Source: Spirochaetia bacterium (GTDB lineage Bacteria; Spirochaetota; Spirochaetia; Sphaerochaetales; Sphaerochaetaceae). From it: a stretch of DNA of 64,000 nucleotides. Every line of letters begins with the position of its first letter. The stretch's first letter is position 1. Location: contig JAKVOU010000001.1 in assembly GCA_022482625.1 (NCBI GenBank), positions 1-64,000 of the forward strand, read 5' to 3'. A model generated the notes under the pieces. The model made no database searches, was not told where the DNA came from, and saw only the letters and a program-made list of their open reading frames with translations. The position numbers and the translations under genes were made by a program. Below are positions 21,383 to 29,472 of this stretch, one piece after another.

Positions 21383-21473
21383 GGCAATAATCTAGCAGAA
21401 AGGACAAAGGACTGCAATTGCACATGTCTGACCCATATTGCAATGGAAGTGGAAAGCAACGTACAGTAGCGGT

Positions 21474-23342
21474 ATGAAACAAGATGAGTATCGTGCTGCA
21501 TTTCTTCCGGTGACGAAACAGGATATGGAAAACCGTGGCTGGGAACAGCTGGATATCGTGATGATAAGTGCCGATGCCTATGTGGACCATCCGTCCTTCG
21601 GCGTTCCTTTGCTGGCCCGCTTGCTGGAAAGCAAGGGCTACAAGGTCGGTATCATAGCTCAGCCGGATTGGCAGGATGACAAGGCGTTTCTCAAGTTAGG
21701 TGTGCCACGGCTTTGCTGCATGATAGGAACTGGTAATATTGATTCCATGGTTCTGAAGTATACCAGTGCCAATAAGCCGAGAAGTGAAGATTTCTACGCT
21801 CCCGGAGGCAAGTCCGGGTTCCGCCCTGATCGGGTCGCTCCTGTCTATGTATCCAAGGCGAGGCAGGCTTTCGGTAAGGATGTGCCGATCATCATCGGAG
21901 GCTTGGAAGCTTCACTGCGCCGGTTTGCCCATTATGATTTCTGGAGTGACAGGATCCGCAATTCCGTTTTGCTTGATGCCAAGGCTGACATGCTTATTTA
22001 CGGGATGGGTGAGAAACAGACCTTGGAAATTGTCCGAAGGCTTCAGGAAGGCCAGAAGGTGGAAGAACTTACCGATATCAAGGGAACCTGTGTTTCATTT
22101 TCTGAAAAGCATAAGGAAGAGATTCTTAAAAATTCCGTATGGCCGCTTGTTATGTTACCTTCTTTTGAAGAGGTCGCTGGCAGAGATAAGAAGTCAAACC
22201 GTCCGACCGAGGAAGGGAAACGGGCGTATGCAGAGGCCTTTCAAATGCAACTTGAGCATGAAAACCCGCTCAAGAGTACACGCATACTCCAGCAAAGTGG
22301 CAATCGTTATGTATTGCAGAATCCTCCCGCCGACAGGTTGACGACAAAGGAGTTTGACAGCTTGTATGAACTGCCTTACACGAGGATGGCCCATCCCGAT
22401 TATGACAAGGACGGTGGGGTTCCTGCCTTGAGGGAAGTACAGTTTTCCATTACGAGCAACAGGGGGTGTTTCGGAGGGTGTTCCTTCTGTGCTATTACCA
22501 GTCACCAAGGTAGGATGATTCAGATCAGAAGCAAGGAGAGCCTTGTACGTGAGGCAACATCATTGACCAAGCTCAACGGTTTCAAGGGCTATATCCATGA
22601 CTTGGGAGGGCCTACTGCCAATTTCCAAGGTTTGGCTTGTATGAAGCAAAGCAAAGCCGGTCCCTGTGATCAAAGGCAATGTCTGTTTCCTTCTCCATGC
22701 CTGAATCTGCAGGATACCCACCGGCACTATCTGGAAATCTTGGAAGCGGTTGAGGCAGTCCCTGGGGTCAAGAAGGTTTTCATACGGTCTGGCATCAGAT
22801 TCGATTATCTGATGGAAGTCTGTTCTCCTGAGATCAGGGAGCAGTTCATTGACCATATGGTAACCCATAATGTCAGTGGTCAGCTCAAGGTGGCACCGGA
22901 ACATATTGATCCGCAGGTGCTTGCCGTAATGGGCAAGCCTCGGGTAGGGGCCTATGAGGCTTTTGAGGAAGCATTCCATCAGGCAAACCATAAGCATGGG
23001 TTGAAACAGTACCTTATTCCGTATTTCATTGCCGCCCATCCTGGTTCTACACTGCAGAGTGCGTTGAAGCTGGCACTGTACCTCAAGAAGGTCGGTTTTG
23101 TGCCTGATCAGTGCCAGGAGTTCTATCCGACACCGGGTACTGTTTCTACCTGCATGTACTATACCGGATTGGATCCCCGGCCCGGTATGGATTTCGCTCC
23201 TGTCTATGTGCCGAAGGGACGGGAGCGTACCTTACAGAGGGCATTGCTTCAATTCAATAAACCTGGCAATGCCAAGCTGGTCAAGGAAGCCCTGCAACTT
23301 TGTGATCGGATGGATCTCTATCATGTACTATGCAGGAGATAA
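21474..23342 (+). CDS. YgiQ family radical SAM protein
   Basis: A 622-residue YgiQ-type protein. The N-terminal domain starts FLPVTKQDMENRGW and contains VDHPSFGVPLLARLLESKGYKVGIIAQPDW. The radical SAM cluster motif is NRGCFGGCSFCAI, followed by HDLGGPTANF, both diagnostic of the family. The function is unknown across the family. I chose the ATG at 21474 because it matches the usual family N-terminus; a longer frame from 21438 would overlap the divergent promoter region. Confidence 0.9.
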   Translation: MKQDEYRAAFLPVTKQDMENRGWEQLDIVMISADAYVDHPSFGVPLLARLLESKGYKVGIIAQPDWQDDKAFLKLGVPRLCCMIGTGNIDSMVLKYTSANKPRSEDFYAPGGKSGFRPDRVAPVYVSKARQAFGKDVPIIIGGLEASLRRFAHYDFWSDRIRNSVLLDAKADMLIYGMGEKQTLEIVRRLQEGQKVEELTDIKGTCVSFSEKHKEEILKNSVWPLVMLPSFEEVAGRDKKSNRPTEEGKRAYAEAFQMQLEHENPLKSTRILQQSGNRYVLQNPPADRLTTKEFDSLYELPYTRMAHPDYDKDGGVPALREVQFSITSNRGCFGGCSFCAITSHQGRMIQIRSKESLVREATSLTKLNGFKGYIHDLGGPTANFQGLACMKQSKAGPCDQRQCLFPSPCLNLQDTHRHYLEILEAVEAVPGVKKVFIRSGIRFDYLMEVCSPEIREQFIDHMVTHNVSGQLKVAPEHIDPQVLAVMGKPRVGAYEAFEEAFHQANHKHGLKQYLIPYFIAAHPGSTLQSALKLALYLKKVGFVPDQCQEFYPTPGTVSTCMYYTGLDPRPGMDFAPVYVPKGRERTLQRALLQFNKPGNAKLVKEALQLCDRMDLYHVLCRR

Positions 23343-23680: not shown

Positions 23681-25943
23681 ATGTCCATAAACAAGAGACT
23701 GAAATCTGCTAGAGGTGTATATAAACTTTTGTTCATTGCTTTACTTGCTGTTTTATTATTGCTGGTAGGTTGCAAGGACCCTGATCCCTACGGTGAACTG
23801 CAGTTTGGCTTAGACGAAGGTACGTCCAAGTCAATAACTCCCGGAAGCAGTGCCAAGGTCACCCAGGTGTCCTTCTGGGGGGAAGAGACAAACAGCAGCA
23901 AGACGCTTTCCAAGCAGACATTGATCCTCGGTGAAAAGAATACGGTCTCCAGCATTCCCGTAGGCACCTGGGACTTCCATGTGGAAGGGATGAACAGCGA
24001 CGGGACGGTGATCACCGAACAGGCCGATGCAACCGGAGTCGCAGTCAACTCAGGGAAGACGAGTTCCATCAGCTTCACCCTGCATTACCTTACAAGTGAC
24101 AACGGGACCTATAGCATAGGGATAGGCTGGCCGGATGACCTGTCATCGACCTTTACCAAGGTTGAGGGCAAGCCTCGGGGACAGCTGGTATGAAGGAGCC
24201 GTGAGCGGGGGCAGTGCGACGGTGAGTGGCAGTGCCGCTGCAGGCGACTACATGGTAGGGGTGAGGTTCACCAATCCCTCCGGTACACAGATTACTTTCT
24301 CAGGGATGGACATGGTGAACGTGTTCACGGGGCTGGAGTCGAGCGGGACGATCAGCTTCGAGGACGCAGACTTTGCCAAGGCGGCACAGCCGACGATAAG
24401 CACAGGGGATGTGACCGGCGGCAAGCAGGTGACCATGGCAACCGATACAGCAGAAGCGGCAATCTACTACACGACAGACGGGACTGACCCTGCCACCAGC
24501 AGTACGAGAGAGAGCTATACAGCTCCGTTCACCTTGGCAGAGAGCAAGACGATAAAGGCGGTTGCCGTGAAGGCAGACCTGCTGGATTCAGAGGGAGCCA
24601 GCCAAGTCGTCACGGTTTCTGCTGTTGCGACACCGACTTTCAGCCTGAGTTCAGGAGATTCGCAAGATGTTGCCATCAGCTGCAAGACTGGCGGAGCAAC
24701 CGTCCATTACCGGTATGCAGTAGGCAACGGAAGCTACGGGAGCTGGACAGAAGGGATGGCAGTGCCGGTGACGCAGGGCAAGGAGCTCAAGGTGGAGGCC
24801 TATGCAGAAAAGGACGGGATGGTCAGGTCTGCCACAGGGACACAGGCCTACAGCGTTGCCACAGGACCAGACTTCAGCAAGACCACCGGAACCTACAGCA
24901 ATACATTTACGCTGACACTGACCGGCGATACCATACGCTACAAGGCAGGAAGCGGTACCTACCGGACCTACTCGTCAGGCATCAGCATCGCAAGCACAGG
25001 GACGACGGTCACGGCATTCGACGAGGCAAGCGGAGAAGTGAACTCTGCACCTGTGAGCAATACCTACACGCTCAAAGTAACGACACCAGTCATTTCCCAG
25101 AGTGACACCACCGGAGGGCAGAAGGTAAGCATCAGCTGTGGGACCAGCGGAGCAACCATCCACTATACGACAGATGGGAGCACGCCTGCATCGTCCAGCA
25201 CTGCCTACGCCGGCGCAATCACGCTGACATCAAGTACGACGGTCAAGGCCATTGCGGTGAAGGACAACTTTGCCAGTTCCGAAGTGGCAAGCAAGGCAGT
25301 TACAGTTTCAACAGTAACGACACCGACTTTCAGTCCCACAGGCTGTACTTTCAGTGATACGCAAAGCGTAACAATGACAAGTACTAGCGGGGCCACCATC
25401 TACTATACGACAGATGGTACTACACCGACGACAAGCAGCAGCCATGTTACATCAGGAGGAAGCATTACCCTCAGTGCCACAACGACGGTAAAGGCGATGG
25501 CAGTAAAGAGTGGCATAGCAAACAGCAGTGTGGCAAGTACAACCTATAAAACCTATTCCGTAGGAGATGAAGGTCCTGCGGGAGGAAAAGTTTTCTATGA
25601 CAAAGGTTCTTATATTGATGACTGGCGGTATCTTGAGGCTGCTCCTGCTGATGAAAGCGGAACATATACTTGGTATTCAGCAAAAAGTAAATGTTCCAAT
25701 AAGACGGTATCATATGGCGAAAAAACATATGATGATTGGTTCCTGCCATCAGTGGGTGAGTTATATGAAATGTACGAGCAAAAAGATAGTATCGGAGGAT
25801 TCGTTAGTAGTCAGTATTGGAGTTCTTCTCAGTCCGGCGCTTACAGCGCGGGCGCGGTCAGCGTGGTCTTCAGCAGTGGCACCTGGTACGACGACTACAG
25901 CAGGAAGCACATCCACTCTGTTCGGGCTGTGCGGGCTTTCTGA
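23681..25943 (+). pseudogene. DGR target: surface lipoprotein with chitobiase-like repeats and a variable lectin-like tail (frameshifted)
   Basis: The first frame (23681-24193) encodes a lipoprotein signal ending LLVGC and a Ser/Thr-rich stretch. After AAG at 24170-24172 one extra C (24173 or 24174) ends it early. The second frame continues directly as LGDSWYEGAV to 25943, restoring about 753 residues. The middle holds three or four CHB_HEX_C-type repeats (YYTTDGTDPATSS, HYTTDGSTPASSS, YYTTDGTTPTTSS). The last 120 residues (GPAGGKVFYDKG..WRYLEAAP..DDWFLPSVGELYEMY) match the DUF1566/Lcl C-terminal, C-type-lectin-like domain found in Treponema DGR targets such as TvpA. The final 37 residues are the variable repeat. 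The start has GAGG upstream. An assembly error at the frameshift is possible. Confidence 0.85.
25830..25940 (+). repeat. DGR variable repeat (VR)
   Basis: The last 111 bp of the target gene align with the template repeat at 26547-26648. They share a CAGTCC start and a GTTCGGGCTGTGCGGGCT end, the likely initiation-of-mutagenic-homing segment. In the alignable left part I count 17 mismatches, and 16 of them are at template adenines (A to G, T or C). The VR is 9 bp longer than the TR: two codons extra near AGCGCG/GGCGCG and a net one codon in the right part. The next codon after VR is the TGA stop. Confidence 0.9.
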
Positions 25944-26002
25944 TTACCTATTTGTCTATTTGACTATTTTAAAAGGAGGTGCAGGAACTTGGGGCCCTGC
26001 AC

Positions 26003-26365
26003 ATGAAATACAAGGAGCTTTCTGTGGCATTATACTATGACTTGCCGGTATTCCATGATGTGTACCATATGATCCTGTTGCTTTTTCAGTATACAAAAGA
26101 TTTTCCGCGGAAATACAAGTTTACGCTGGGACAAGATATGAAAAGGGATGGTATTGTATTGGTACGTAGTATTTATCGTGCGAACAAAGCCATGGAAAAA
26201 CGGAGATATCTGGAGCAGTTCCTTGATGACTGAGAGATTCTGAAATTTGAAATTCGGCTTTGTGTTGATCTCAGAATCATGAGCATGAAACGGCAGGCAG
26301 CCCTTGCCGTATATATGGAACGAATAGGAAAACAAATCATCGGTTGGCGTAATGCCAGTCGGTGA
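26003..26365 (+). pseudogene. avd: DGR accessory variability determinant (Avd), interrupted by in-frame TGA
   Basis: The four-helix-bundle Avd protein binds the reverse transcriptase and template RNA. The frame reads KYKELSVALYYDLPVFHDVYH, then FPRKYKFTLGQDM, a typical Avd start. It stops at a TGA (26231-26233) after LEQFLDD. In the same frame it continues EILKFEIRLCVDLRIMS to GKQIIGWRNASR and a second TGA at 26363-26365, which is exactly the normal Avd C-terminus (..IGRQLGGWLKS type). So one nonsense codon removes the last third. The strong site AAAGGAGGT (25972-25980) is far from the ATG at 26003, so an alternative start codon between them is possible. Confidence 0.82.
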
Positions 26366-26496
26366 AGGCCGGAATGACTGTGGTTACGGCCATAGCTAGC
26401 GAGCCAGGCTTTGGATGAAAGCGGCAGGAAGTCTGTATGGTAATACACACAGGGAAATGGTCTGACAAAGACGGGCGTCTCTGTCAGCAAAACGCT

Positions 26497-26538
26497 CCTG
26501 CGTCATTGGATTTGGTCCGTATGCGAGCTAGACGCAGG
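26497..26538. repeat. Inverted repeat just upstream of the template repeat
   Basis: CCTGCGTC (26497-26504) and GACGCAGG (26531-26538), 8 bp perfect with a 26-nt loop, end 9 bp before the TR. DGR template RNAs are structured on both sides of the TR, so this may be part of the RNA fold recognised by Avd and RT. Confidence 0.5.
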
Positions 26539-26546
26539 GCCTGTTG

Positions 26547-26648
26547 CAGTCCAGCGCTTACAACGCGTACAACGTAAACTTCAACAATGGCAACAAAAAC
26601 GACAACAACAAGAACAACAACAAATATGTTCGGGCTGTGCGGGCTCTC
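26547..26648 (+). repeat. DGR template repeat (TR)
   Basis: A 102-bp non-coding repeat, very rich in AAC codon-like triplets in the VR reading frame, which is the hallmark that lets adenine mutagenesis diversify exposed residues. It lies between avd and the RT gene. It shares its flanks with the VR at 25830-25940 but is 9 bp shorter. The last few bases differ from the VR (CTC against TTC). Confidence 0.9.
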
Positions 26649-26718
26649 AGGCCAAAGCTATGCGGGAGCTGGAGAAAAGATTTCCAGTTCCCGCATTTGT
26701 CCCTATCCTATACCACTT

Positions 26719-27847
26719 GTGGATTTCTATGATGCATATGAAGCCTGCCGGCAGCATACACGGCATACAGCTGCAGCCCAGTTGTTTGAGCTGGATTATG
26801 AGAAAAACTTAGAAGCACTTTACAAGGAAGTCAATTCAGGAACATACAAGATCAGTCCCGCTACGGCTTTTGTCGTGCGGGAACCCGTACCCCGTGAAAT
26901 ATTTGCTTCTGCGTTTCGAGACAGGGTCATACAACACCTTGTCGTACAAAAAATCCTTCCATTGCTGGAAAAACAAAACATCCAAGACAGCTATGCCTGC
27001 CGTAGGGGAAAAGGTACCCATGCCGCTATCCGAAGGCTGGATCATTTTATCAGAAGCTGCTCACAGAATTACACCAAGGAATGCTGGATTCTGAAACTTG
27101 ACATCAAAGGTTTTTTCATGAGCATAGACAGGACAATCCTCTATCGACAGCTTTTGTCCTTGCTTACGCCTCTGTGCAATGAACCGAGTTTTTCCCTTGT
27201 ACTTGCCTTGATTTCCCAAATTATTTTCCATGATCCTACGACTGACTGTATCATCAAAAGAAAGAGAAGCGACTGGAATCTCCTCCCACAGGAAAAAAGC
27301 CTTTTCCATGCGAAGAAAGGTTGTGGACTCCCACTTGGAAACTATACCAGCCAAATCTTGGCCAATTTCTACCTTTCTTCATTTGACCACTTTAGCAAGC
27401 ATGACCTTAGGATCCGTCGGTATGTACGATATGGTCATTGTTCATTTGAAAAAGAATTTCCTGCAATTTCTTATTCCTGTTGTCCGCGCTTATCTTGCAA
27501 AACATCTGCATCTTACACTTCATCCGAAGAAAATGTATCTGCAACCATGCAAGAACGGGGTCCGTTTCCTTGGAATCCAGTTCAAGCCAGGTCATCTTCT
27601 TGTCTCCCGACGTGTTACGGAGCATGCCTTCAGGACAGTAGGTGAATGTAACAAAATTGCTTTTTACCATAAACCTACCGTTGAGGAAACCTTGCATGTA
27701 CAGGCACGTGTCAATGCATACTTTGGCCTATTGTCCCATTACCATACCTACAGGCTTCGCAGAAATTTATCCCTTTCTCTTGTTACCTCATGGAAAAACC
27801 GTTTGGTTCCGGCTCCTGCCTACCGTTTTATGGTCCGTAAGAAATAA
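26719..27847 (+). pseudogene. DGR reverse transcriptase, frameshifted at the catalytic YVDD
   Basis: The first frame carries the N-terminal RT motifs: TYKISPATAFVVREPVPREIFASAFRDRVIQHLV, LKLDIKGFFMSI (motif A Asp) and LPLGNYTSQILANFYL. LGNxxSQ replaces the usual QGxxxSP and is the DGR-type signature. The frame then reads RRYVRYGH. The +1-shifted frame resumes as DMVIVHLKKNFLQFL and runs through the thumb to 27847 (VRFLGIQFKPGHL). Two missing bases (GA) after 27426 would restore YVDDMVIVH. The deletion thus removes the first catalytic Asp and shifts the frame. The start is uncertain; I give a GTG at 26719. Confidence 0.87.
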
Positions 27848-27942: not shown

Positions 27943-28287
27943 ATGGAAAAATCAAATCAACTGTATATACTCTGGACCAATGCTGATGAGTTGACATCAG
28001 AAAAGATGGTAATGATGTATGCCACCAACAGCCTGCTGGAAAAATGGTGGGATGCTGTAACCGTCATTATCTGGGGCGCCACCACGAAACTGGTTGCGGA
28101 GAATACCTCCATCCAAACAAAGATACAGGTTGCCCAACAAGCGGGAGTGCAATTTTCAGCCTGCAAGGCCTGTGCTGACCAGCTGGGCGTTGCTGACAAG
28201 CTCATCGGTCTGGGCATTGAAGTCATCTATTGGGGTGAAGGGTTGACGACAATACTGAAAGACGGGGATAAACTGCTGACCGTCTGA
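27943..28287 (+). CDS. DsrE/DsrF-like family protein
   Basis: A 114-residue cytoplasmic protein of the DsrE-like fold: LYILWTNADELTSEKMVMMY at the N-terminus, VTVIIWGATTKLVAEN, and a conserved Cys pair in FSACKACADQLG, close to the active-site Cys of sulfur-transfer relatives. Relatives move sulfur in tRNA thiolation or sulfur oxidation, or have unknown roles. It starts after AAGGAAGG at the ATG at 27943, just downstream of the broken RT gene but in normal host codon use. The function here is not clear. Confidence 0.75.
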   Translation: MEKSNQLYILWTNADELTSEKMVMMYATNSLLEKWWDAVTVIIWGATTKLVAENTSIQTKIQVAQQAGVQFSACKACADQLGVADKLIGLGIEVIYWGEGLTTILKDGDKLLTV

Positions 28288-28443: not shown

Positions 28444-29472
28444 ATGGAAAAGAAGAACATCGATTGGACTAGCCTTGATTTCTCCTATCGTGCGACCGAC
28501 AAACGCTACGTAGCTGAATACAAGGATGGTTCATGGGGCAAGGGATACCTTACCAATCAAAGTGAAATCGTCATCAATGAATGCGCAGGAGTTCTTCAGT
28601 ATGCCCAGACCTGTTTTGAGGGCCTGAAAGCCTATACTACCAAGGATGGACGAATTGTTACGTTCCGTCCTGACCTGAACGCCGAGAGGATGATGAATAC
28701 CTGCAAACGACTATGCATTCCAGTCGTAACAAAGGAAATGTTCCTAGAGGCAGTAGACCAGGTCGTAGCGGCCAATGCAGCCTATGTACCACCGTTCGGA
28801 ACAGGTGCAACACTCTATCTTCGCCCGTACGTATTCGGCAGTGGCCCTGTAATCGGCGTCAAAGCCTCGGGCGAATATCAGTTCAGGCTGTTCGCAACAC
28901 CTGTCGGCCCCTATTTCAAGGGAGGTGTCAAACCCGTGAAGCTCATGCTCAGTGACTATGACAGGGCAGCTCCGCATGGAACCGGCAATATCAAGGCTGG
29001 ACTCAACTATGCAATGAGCCTGTATCCGGGAACCCTCGCACATAGCCTTGGCTATGCTGACAATATGTATCTGGACTCAGCTACCAGAACCTATGTCGAA
29101 GAAACCGGAGGAGCCAACTTCCTCTTCGTGGACAAAGAGGGTACCATTGTCATTCCGAAGAGCCCGACGATTCTTCCTTCCATTACCAGAAGATCCTTGG
29201 TCACTGTTGCAAAGGATATGCTCGGCATGAAAGTCGTCGAACGTCCTGTTGCCTATACTGAAGTAAAGGACTTCGTTGAATGTGGTCTCTGTGGCACTGC
29301 TGCAGTCATCAGCCCAGTCGGACAGATCCATACCAAGGACGGAGATATCAACTTCGCAAGTGGCATGGACGAGATCGGGCCAGTAGCAAAGAAACTGTAT
29401 GATACCCTGACAGGTATCCAGATGGGAGTGATCGAAGGCCCTGAAGGGTGGATCAGAACCATTATCAAATAG
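28444..29472 (+). CDS. ilvE: Branched-chain amino acid aminotransferase
   Basis: A 342-residue fold-type IV PLP enzyme that transfers the amino group between glutamate and the 2-oxo acids of Leu, Ile and Val. Motifs are INECAGVLQYAQTCFEGLKAY at the N-terminus, LYLRPYVFG, the catalytic Lys in GTGNIKAGLNYA, and EETGGANFLFV with SPTILPSITR for cofactor binding. It belongs to the longer BCAT type (class II). It is transcribed alone and is followed by a terminator. Confidence 0.93.
   Translation: MEKKNIDWTSLDFSYRATDKRYVAEYKDGSWGKGYLTNQSEIVINECAGVLQYAQTCFEGLKAYTTKDGRIVTFRPDLNAERMMNTCKRLCIPVVTKEMFLEAVDQVVAANAAYVPPFGTGATLYLRPYVFGSGPVIGVKASGEYQFRLFATPVGPYFKGGVKPVKLMLSDYDRAAPHGTGNIKAGLNYAMSLYPGTLAHSLGYADNMYLDSATRTYVEETGGANFLFVDKEGTIVIPKSPTILPSITRRSLVTVAKDMLGMKVVERPVAYTEVKDFVECGLCGTAAVISPVGQIHTKDGDINFASGMDEIGPVAKKLYDTLTGIQMGVIEGPEGWIRTIIK

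Follow-up and report, generated by a model that had tools for sequence, protein, structure and literature searches.

In diversity-generating retroelements (DGRs), a reverse transcriptase (RT) working with Avd makes cDNA from the RNA of a template repeat (TR), erring at adenines, and this cDNA homes into variable regions (VRs). Both inactivated DGRs and remote targets have been described previously, and the locus reported here, at positions 23681-27847 of the window (the whole 64,000-nt stretch of DNA analysed), is a well-preserved new example. The DiGReF survey listed DGRs with an inactivated RT in Ruminococcus gnavus, Acaryochloris marina and Bacteroides sp. 9_1_42FAA, their RTs being broken by a nonsense change, an insertion or a frameshift (PMC3521204). 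As in those cases, TR and VR remain readable here, the adenine pattern is kept and the RT is broken. Here, however, the damage extends to avd and the adjacent target, the RT has lost its catalytic aspartates, and it is the remote VRs, not the adjacent one, that show a clean adenine pattern.

The DGR of Treponema denticola (TvpA and its paralogues; PMC4891356) provides a second parallel, with lipoprotein targets ending in a C-terminal variable domain, several remote targets reached in trans, and gains and losses of the system that leave target genes behind. However, core-less T. denticola strains have lost RT and TR, whereas here the broken core persists beside remote targets. Paralogous targets dispersed in the genome and TR-VR homology are also features of cyanobacterial remote variable proteins, for which the authors suggest that cis elements located towards the end of the gene move with it (PMC7517822); unlike there, the 5' avd part on three remote copies marks one duplication family here. 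Finally, RT family, Avd, TR-to-VR logic and an inverted repeat after the VR are shared with the DGR of Bordetella phage BPP-1 (PMC3240598). BPP-1 needs a 4-nt GRNA loop, while the loop found here spans 10 nt and does not fit that consensus, its 7-bp stem being conserved in three copies; the hairpin of the intact relative G095 has a GGAA loop. Literature searches for PDB 'HbP1' and for DGRs in Sphaerochaeta returned no papers.

Anatomy of the locus and its lesions

Direct reading of the sequence gives the order lipoprotein target with C-terminal VR, avd, TR and DGR-type RT (Table 1), flanked by ygiQ (21438-23342) on one side and ilvE (28444-29472) on the other. The canonical order proposed in the first-pass annotation is thereby borne out, with family matches for RT, avd and target; its description of the locus as complete and legible in every part also holds, save that the length of the adjacent VR no longer equals that of the TR. 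The locus is a canonical DGR in which every one of the three genes is broken.

Table 1. Features of the DGR locus (window positions).
Feature	Position	Strand	Evidence
Target lipoprotein pseudogene	23681..25943	+	Pfam matches; intact paralogues
Target lesion, +1 frameshift from an additional G	24170..24172	+	Missing in paralogues at 255, 619 and 812 kb
Adjacent VR, 111 nt, exceeds TR by 9 nt	25830..25940	+	Alignment with TR
Invariant VR end (IMH-like) GTTCGGGCTGTGCGGGCTTTCTGA	25920..25943	+	Common to TR end (last bases excepted) and three remote VRs
Inverted repeat GTGCAGG...CCTGCAC after VR, 10-nt loop, candidate homing hairpin/cruciform	25979..26002	+	Folding; kept in 255k, 575k and 619k copies
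avd pseudogene	26003..26365	+	PHROG 3206 'Avd protein of DGR' E 2e-12
avd lesion, in-frame TGA	26231..26233	+	Comparison with two intact avd genes
Template repeat (TR), adenine-rich core	26547..26650	+	Adenine-specific differences to 255 kb and 619 kb VRs over 104 nt
Strong hairpin between TR and RT	26660..26696	+	RNA fold, 80-nt stretch, -32.8 kcal/mol
DGR-type RT pseudogene, GTG start inferred	26719..27847	+	Pfam RVT_1 E 3e-11 (profile search); PHROG 1423 'Reverse transcriptase' E 5e-64
RT lesion, junction of 11-nt deletion after Arg-Tyr	27432..27434	+	Comparison with intact homologues

The hairpin between TR and RT may shape the TR RNA at its 3' end or play a part in transcription. Measured against host codon usage, avd and RT (26003-27847) fit poorly and the target very well, as might be seen with a foreign core and an adapted target.

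The solved structure closest to the RT is PDB 8ub7 (83 bits; group II RTs come next with 28), an entry titled 'Reverse transcriptase' and belonging to a series that we take to be the BPP-1 DGR RT. The RT also carries LGNYTSQ, the DGR signature already recognized in the first-pass annotation, which fits the motif (I/V/L)GxxxSQ marking DGR RTs (PMC3521204). Profile searches matched it to RVT_1 and to PHROG 'Reverse transcriptase', and by motif and closest structure the RT groups with DGR RTs. It is 51% identical to the intact RTs of the relatives G095 and G099. Defence RT families (PADLOC) were matched more weakly and as a generic RT type, no close relatives of the RT were found in viral contigs, and its search of genome contigs returned only a 28% Verrucomicrobiota match.

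Arg-Tyr-x-Asp-Asp is present in all ten RT homologues with a readable motif, which belong to the same bacterial family. In the window RT, a lone G comes after Arg-Tyr (27427-27432), and the protein then resumes in another frame with VIVH, residues from beyond the catalytic motif; the counterpart stretch of 8ub7 likewise stops at Arg-Tyr at the lesion point. An 11-nt deletion is the single simplest event, removing both catalytic aspartates and shifting the frame; the intact catalytic xDD of a functional DGR RT is absent here. Since both aspartates go with the deletion, frame correction alone would not give an active RT. A 2-nt deletion at YVDD had been proposed: the place of the break stands, but against the ten intact homologues the lesion is larger. 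The 2-nt reading leaves three residues unaligned, whereas 'IRRYVRY' aligns directly with 'IRFYGRY' of the intact RTs and with the corresponding stretch of 8ub7.

The avd pseudogene also matches Pfam bAvd below the cut-off. Its identity to the intact avd genes of G095 and G099, both of which have a sense codon at the position of the TGA, is about 80% in the N part and 60% in the C part. Besides the window copy, solely 5' fragments and no intact avd were found in the assembly.

The target comprises a signal peptide with lipobox, CHB_HEX_C_1/Fn3_assoc repeats (Pfam E 4e-52 and 2e-42) and an Lcl_C-like C-terminal domain (6e-7, below the cut-off). This domain may have a C-type-lectin-like fold, given this sub-threshold match and a weak one to PDB 8q4e, and the VR terminates at the stop codon. 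The extra G is missing from three paralogues with near-identical surroundings, so the claimed +1 frameshift is confirmed, as is the in-frame stop in avd by the comparison above. Five paralogues, at 255, 575, 619, 730 and 812 kb, are intact, with 561 to 843 codons open end to end. Decay by codon position was not detected in the broken target, whose third-position bias is no lower than in the intact paralogues; its break is thus recent, or decay is too weak for detection.

It might be argued that an active DGR merely looks broken through assembly or sequencing errors, and an extra G in a short G run is indeed the sort of site at which assemblies can err. However, the three lesions, within 3.3 kb, are of three kinds, the avd one being a substitution to stop and the RT one an 11-nt deletion away from any homopolymer, while the conserved neighbours are uninterrupted and five long paralogues intact. 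A codon-usage scan was run over about 150 kb, made up of the window and seven other loci, and no gene but the target was judged split; other closely spaced frame changes resembled ordinary gene boundaries. The scan is coarse and left avd and RT unscored, so that their lesions rest on homologue comparison. Five intact paralogues and the lack of a second in-gene frame break in about 150 kb argue against sequencing error, and this explanation appears very unlikely.

Template repeat and variable regions

When used as a DNA query against the assembly, the TR gave two further strong matches, C1:255606-255707 (plus) and C1:619579-619680 (minus), both at the 3' ends of intact target paralogues, and the two VRs align to it over 104 nt without gaps. 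Within a 98-nt core, 17/39 and 14/39 TR adenines are changed in the two remote VRs, against 2/59 and 3/59 other bases (Fisher p 1e-6 and 1e-4). The 255 kb and 619 kb VRs differ from each other at 24 sites, and 19 of these are adenines in the TR. Beyond the VR, the identity of the broken target to these two genes is only 88% and 84%. Such adenine-specific changes, in genes otherwise so diverged, indicate that the remote VRs were rewritten from the window TR, or from a near-identical TR, after the genes had diverged.

As an alternative, the remote genes could have arisen by simple duplication of the target, their VRs then drifting under selection without mutagenic homing, consistent with their being paralogues that have sequence in common before and after the VR. 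Nonetheless, drift offers no reason for substitutions to concentrate at TR adenines, where 17 of the 19 and 14 of the 17 fall, nor for a difference of just 3-5% between VR and TR at non-adenine sites beside 12-16% in the remainder of the genes. Moreover, a duplicate of the local target should resemble the 111-nt local VR, yet the remote VRs resemble the TR. Drift is therefore highly improbable, and rewriting from a TR is retained. VRs of the 575, 730 and 812 kb copies are too diverged for assignment to the window TR.

The adjacent VR is related to the TR and shows adenine bias, yet it is no plain adenine-mutated copy, its 111 nt being matched by 102 nt in the TR with one 6-nt and one 3-nt gap. 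As a yardstick, ten other DGRs in the family have ungapped TR-VR alignments in which adenines account for 89 to 100% of the mismatches. The intact DGR of G095 (TR, L050 3489-3634; VR, L050 4182-4330) is also exceptional, with a 3-nt gap, a VR longer by one codon, and 71% of mismatches at TR adenines. Codon-sized length changes in AAC repeats may be recurrent in this subgroup. Considering that its 9-nt excess sets it apart from the ten other family DGRs, the adjacent VR was probably not last written by the present TR, this being the simplest reading of its length; either TR shrinkage or VR growth may have produced the gap. It is conceivable, though rather doubtful, that the DGR kept writing remote targets after the adjacent VR had dropped out, and that its death then fixed the varied surface lectins. 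If so, the locus would preserve a dated sequence of events, with the local target lost first and the writer second.

Probable loss of function and present state of the targets

Altogether, the locus is very likely an inactivated DGR that formerly served several targets. The earlier description of a decayed DGR is supported by an RT that is DGR-type, without catalytic aspartates and the only one in the assembly. In the mechanism that we propose, an RT-Avd complex prone to errors at adenines would have copied the TR RNA, and the resulting cDNA would have replaced VRs next door and, in trans, at least those of the duplicated lipoprotein genes at 255 kb and 619 kb. Function would have been lost via at least two disabling lesions, the catalytic deletion in the RT and the avd stop, with the local target breaking too, and the VR sequences would now be fixed in ordinary genes. 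We infer here trans homing by the window RT, the lack of any restoring factor and the order of events.

The few non-adenine changes in the remote VRs imply that the death was recent, or that activity came from elsewhere, and the first-pass annotation had considered that another DGR in the genome may serve the VR. The genome search for other RT genes, TRs and VRs that it called for matched the two remote VRs and no second RT: by RVT_1 profile and RT protein searches, the window locus holds the sole RT in 3,467,518 bases, in an assembly 98.55% complete with 4.73% contamination, which leaves room for an RT in missing sequence. That the cassette is dead while another RT still writes the VRs in trans would suit writing that was recent relative to the 12-16% divergence elsewhere, but with neither another RT nor an intact avd in those 3.47 Mb it is hardly credible.

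Returning to an inactivated DGR as the preferred reading, the remaining VRs should be fixed because RT and avd are both broken, and the frozen VR that had been foreseen is not one, two remote VRs in intact genes also bearing the adenine signature of the TR. A single genome illustrates the end of a DGR, in which the writer is lost and duplicated, diversified targets persist intact as ordinary genes. It also carries a warning for DGR surveys, in that an annotated DGR-type RT may be inactive and adjacent VRs may be stale.

Duplication of targets and origin of the locus

The copies at 255, 575 and 619 kb share with the DGR locus the target, the VR end, the inverted repeat and 25 to 48 avd codons, after which homology ends, pointing to a duplication in common with the DGR locus. 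In BPP-1, the IMH plus a hairpin downstream of the VR is enough to turn a gene into a target (PMC3240598), so the duplicated unit carried candidate cis elements. Targets can therefore spread with homing cis elements attached, as in these three copies. The 730 and 812 kb copies are without the inverted repeat and their VR end has diverged. A 230-codon frame at L029 5999-6691 (minus; C1 about 2859 kb) consists of the VR-type C-terminal domain alone, without repeat stalk, and this domain is 38% identical to that of the target.

In three congeners, ilvE directly follows ygiQ with collinear flanks and neither a DGR nor a DsrE-like gene in the gap, and no RT of the window type was found in their assemblies. 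Gain of the DGR by insertion in the window lineage is the simpler reading, although loss in the three congeners may be the alternative. A DsrE-like gene lies between RT and ilvE in the window (27943-28287) and may have arrived together with the DGR. No serine-recombinase gene was seen adjoining the window DGR. The nearest intact DGRs, those of G095 and G099, belong to another genus of the family and lie beside large serine-recombinase genes (L050 546-2180 and L051 2047-3246), a setting suggestive of carriage on a mobile element.
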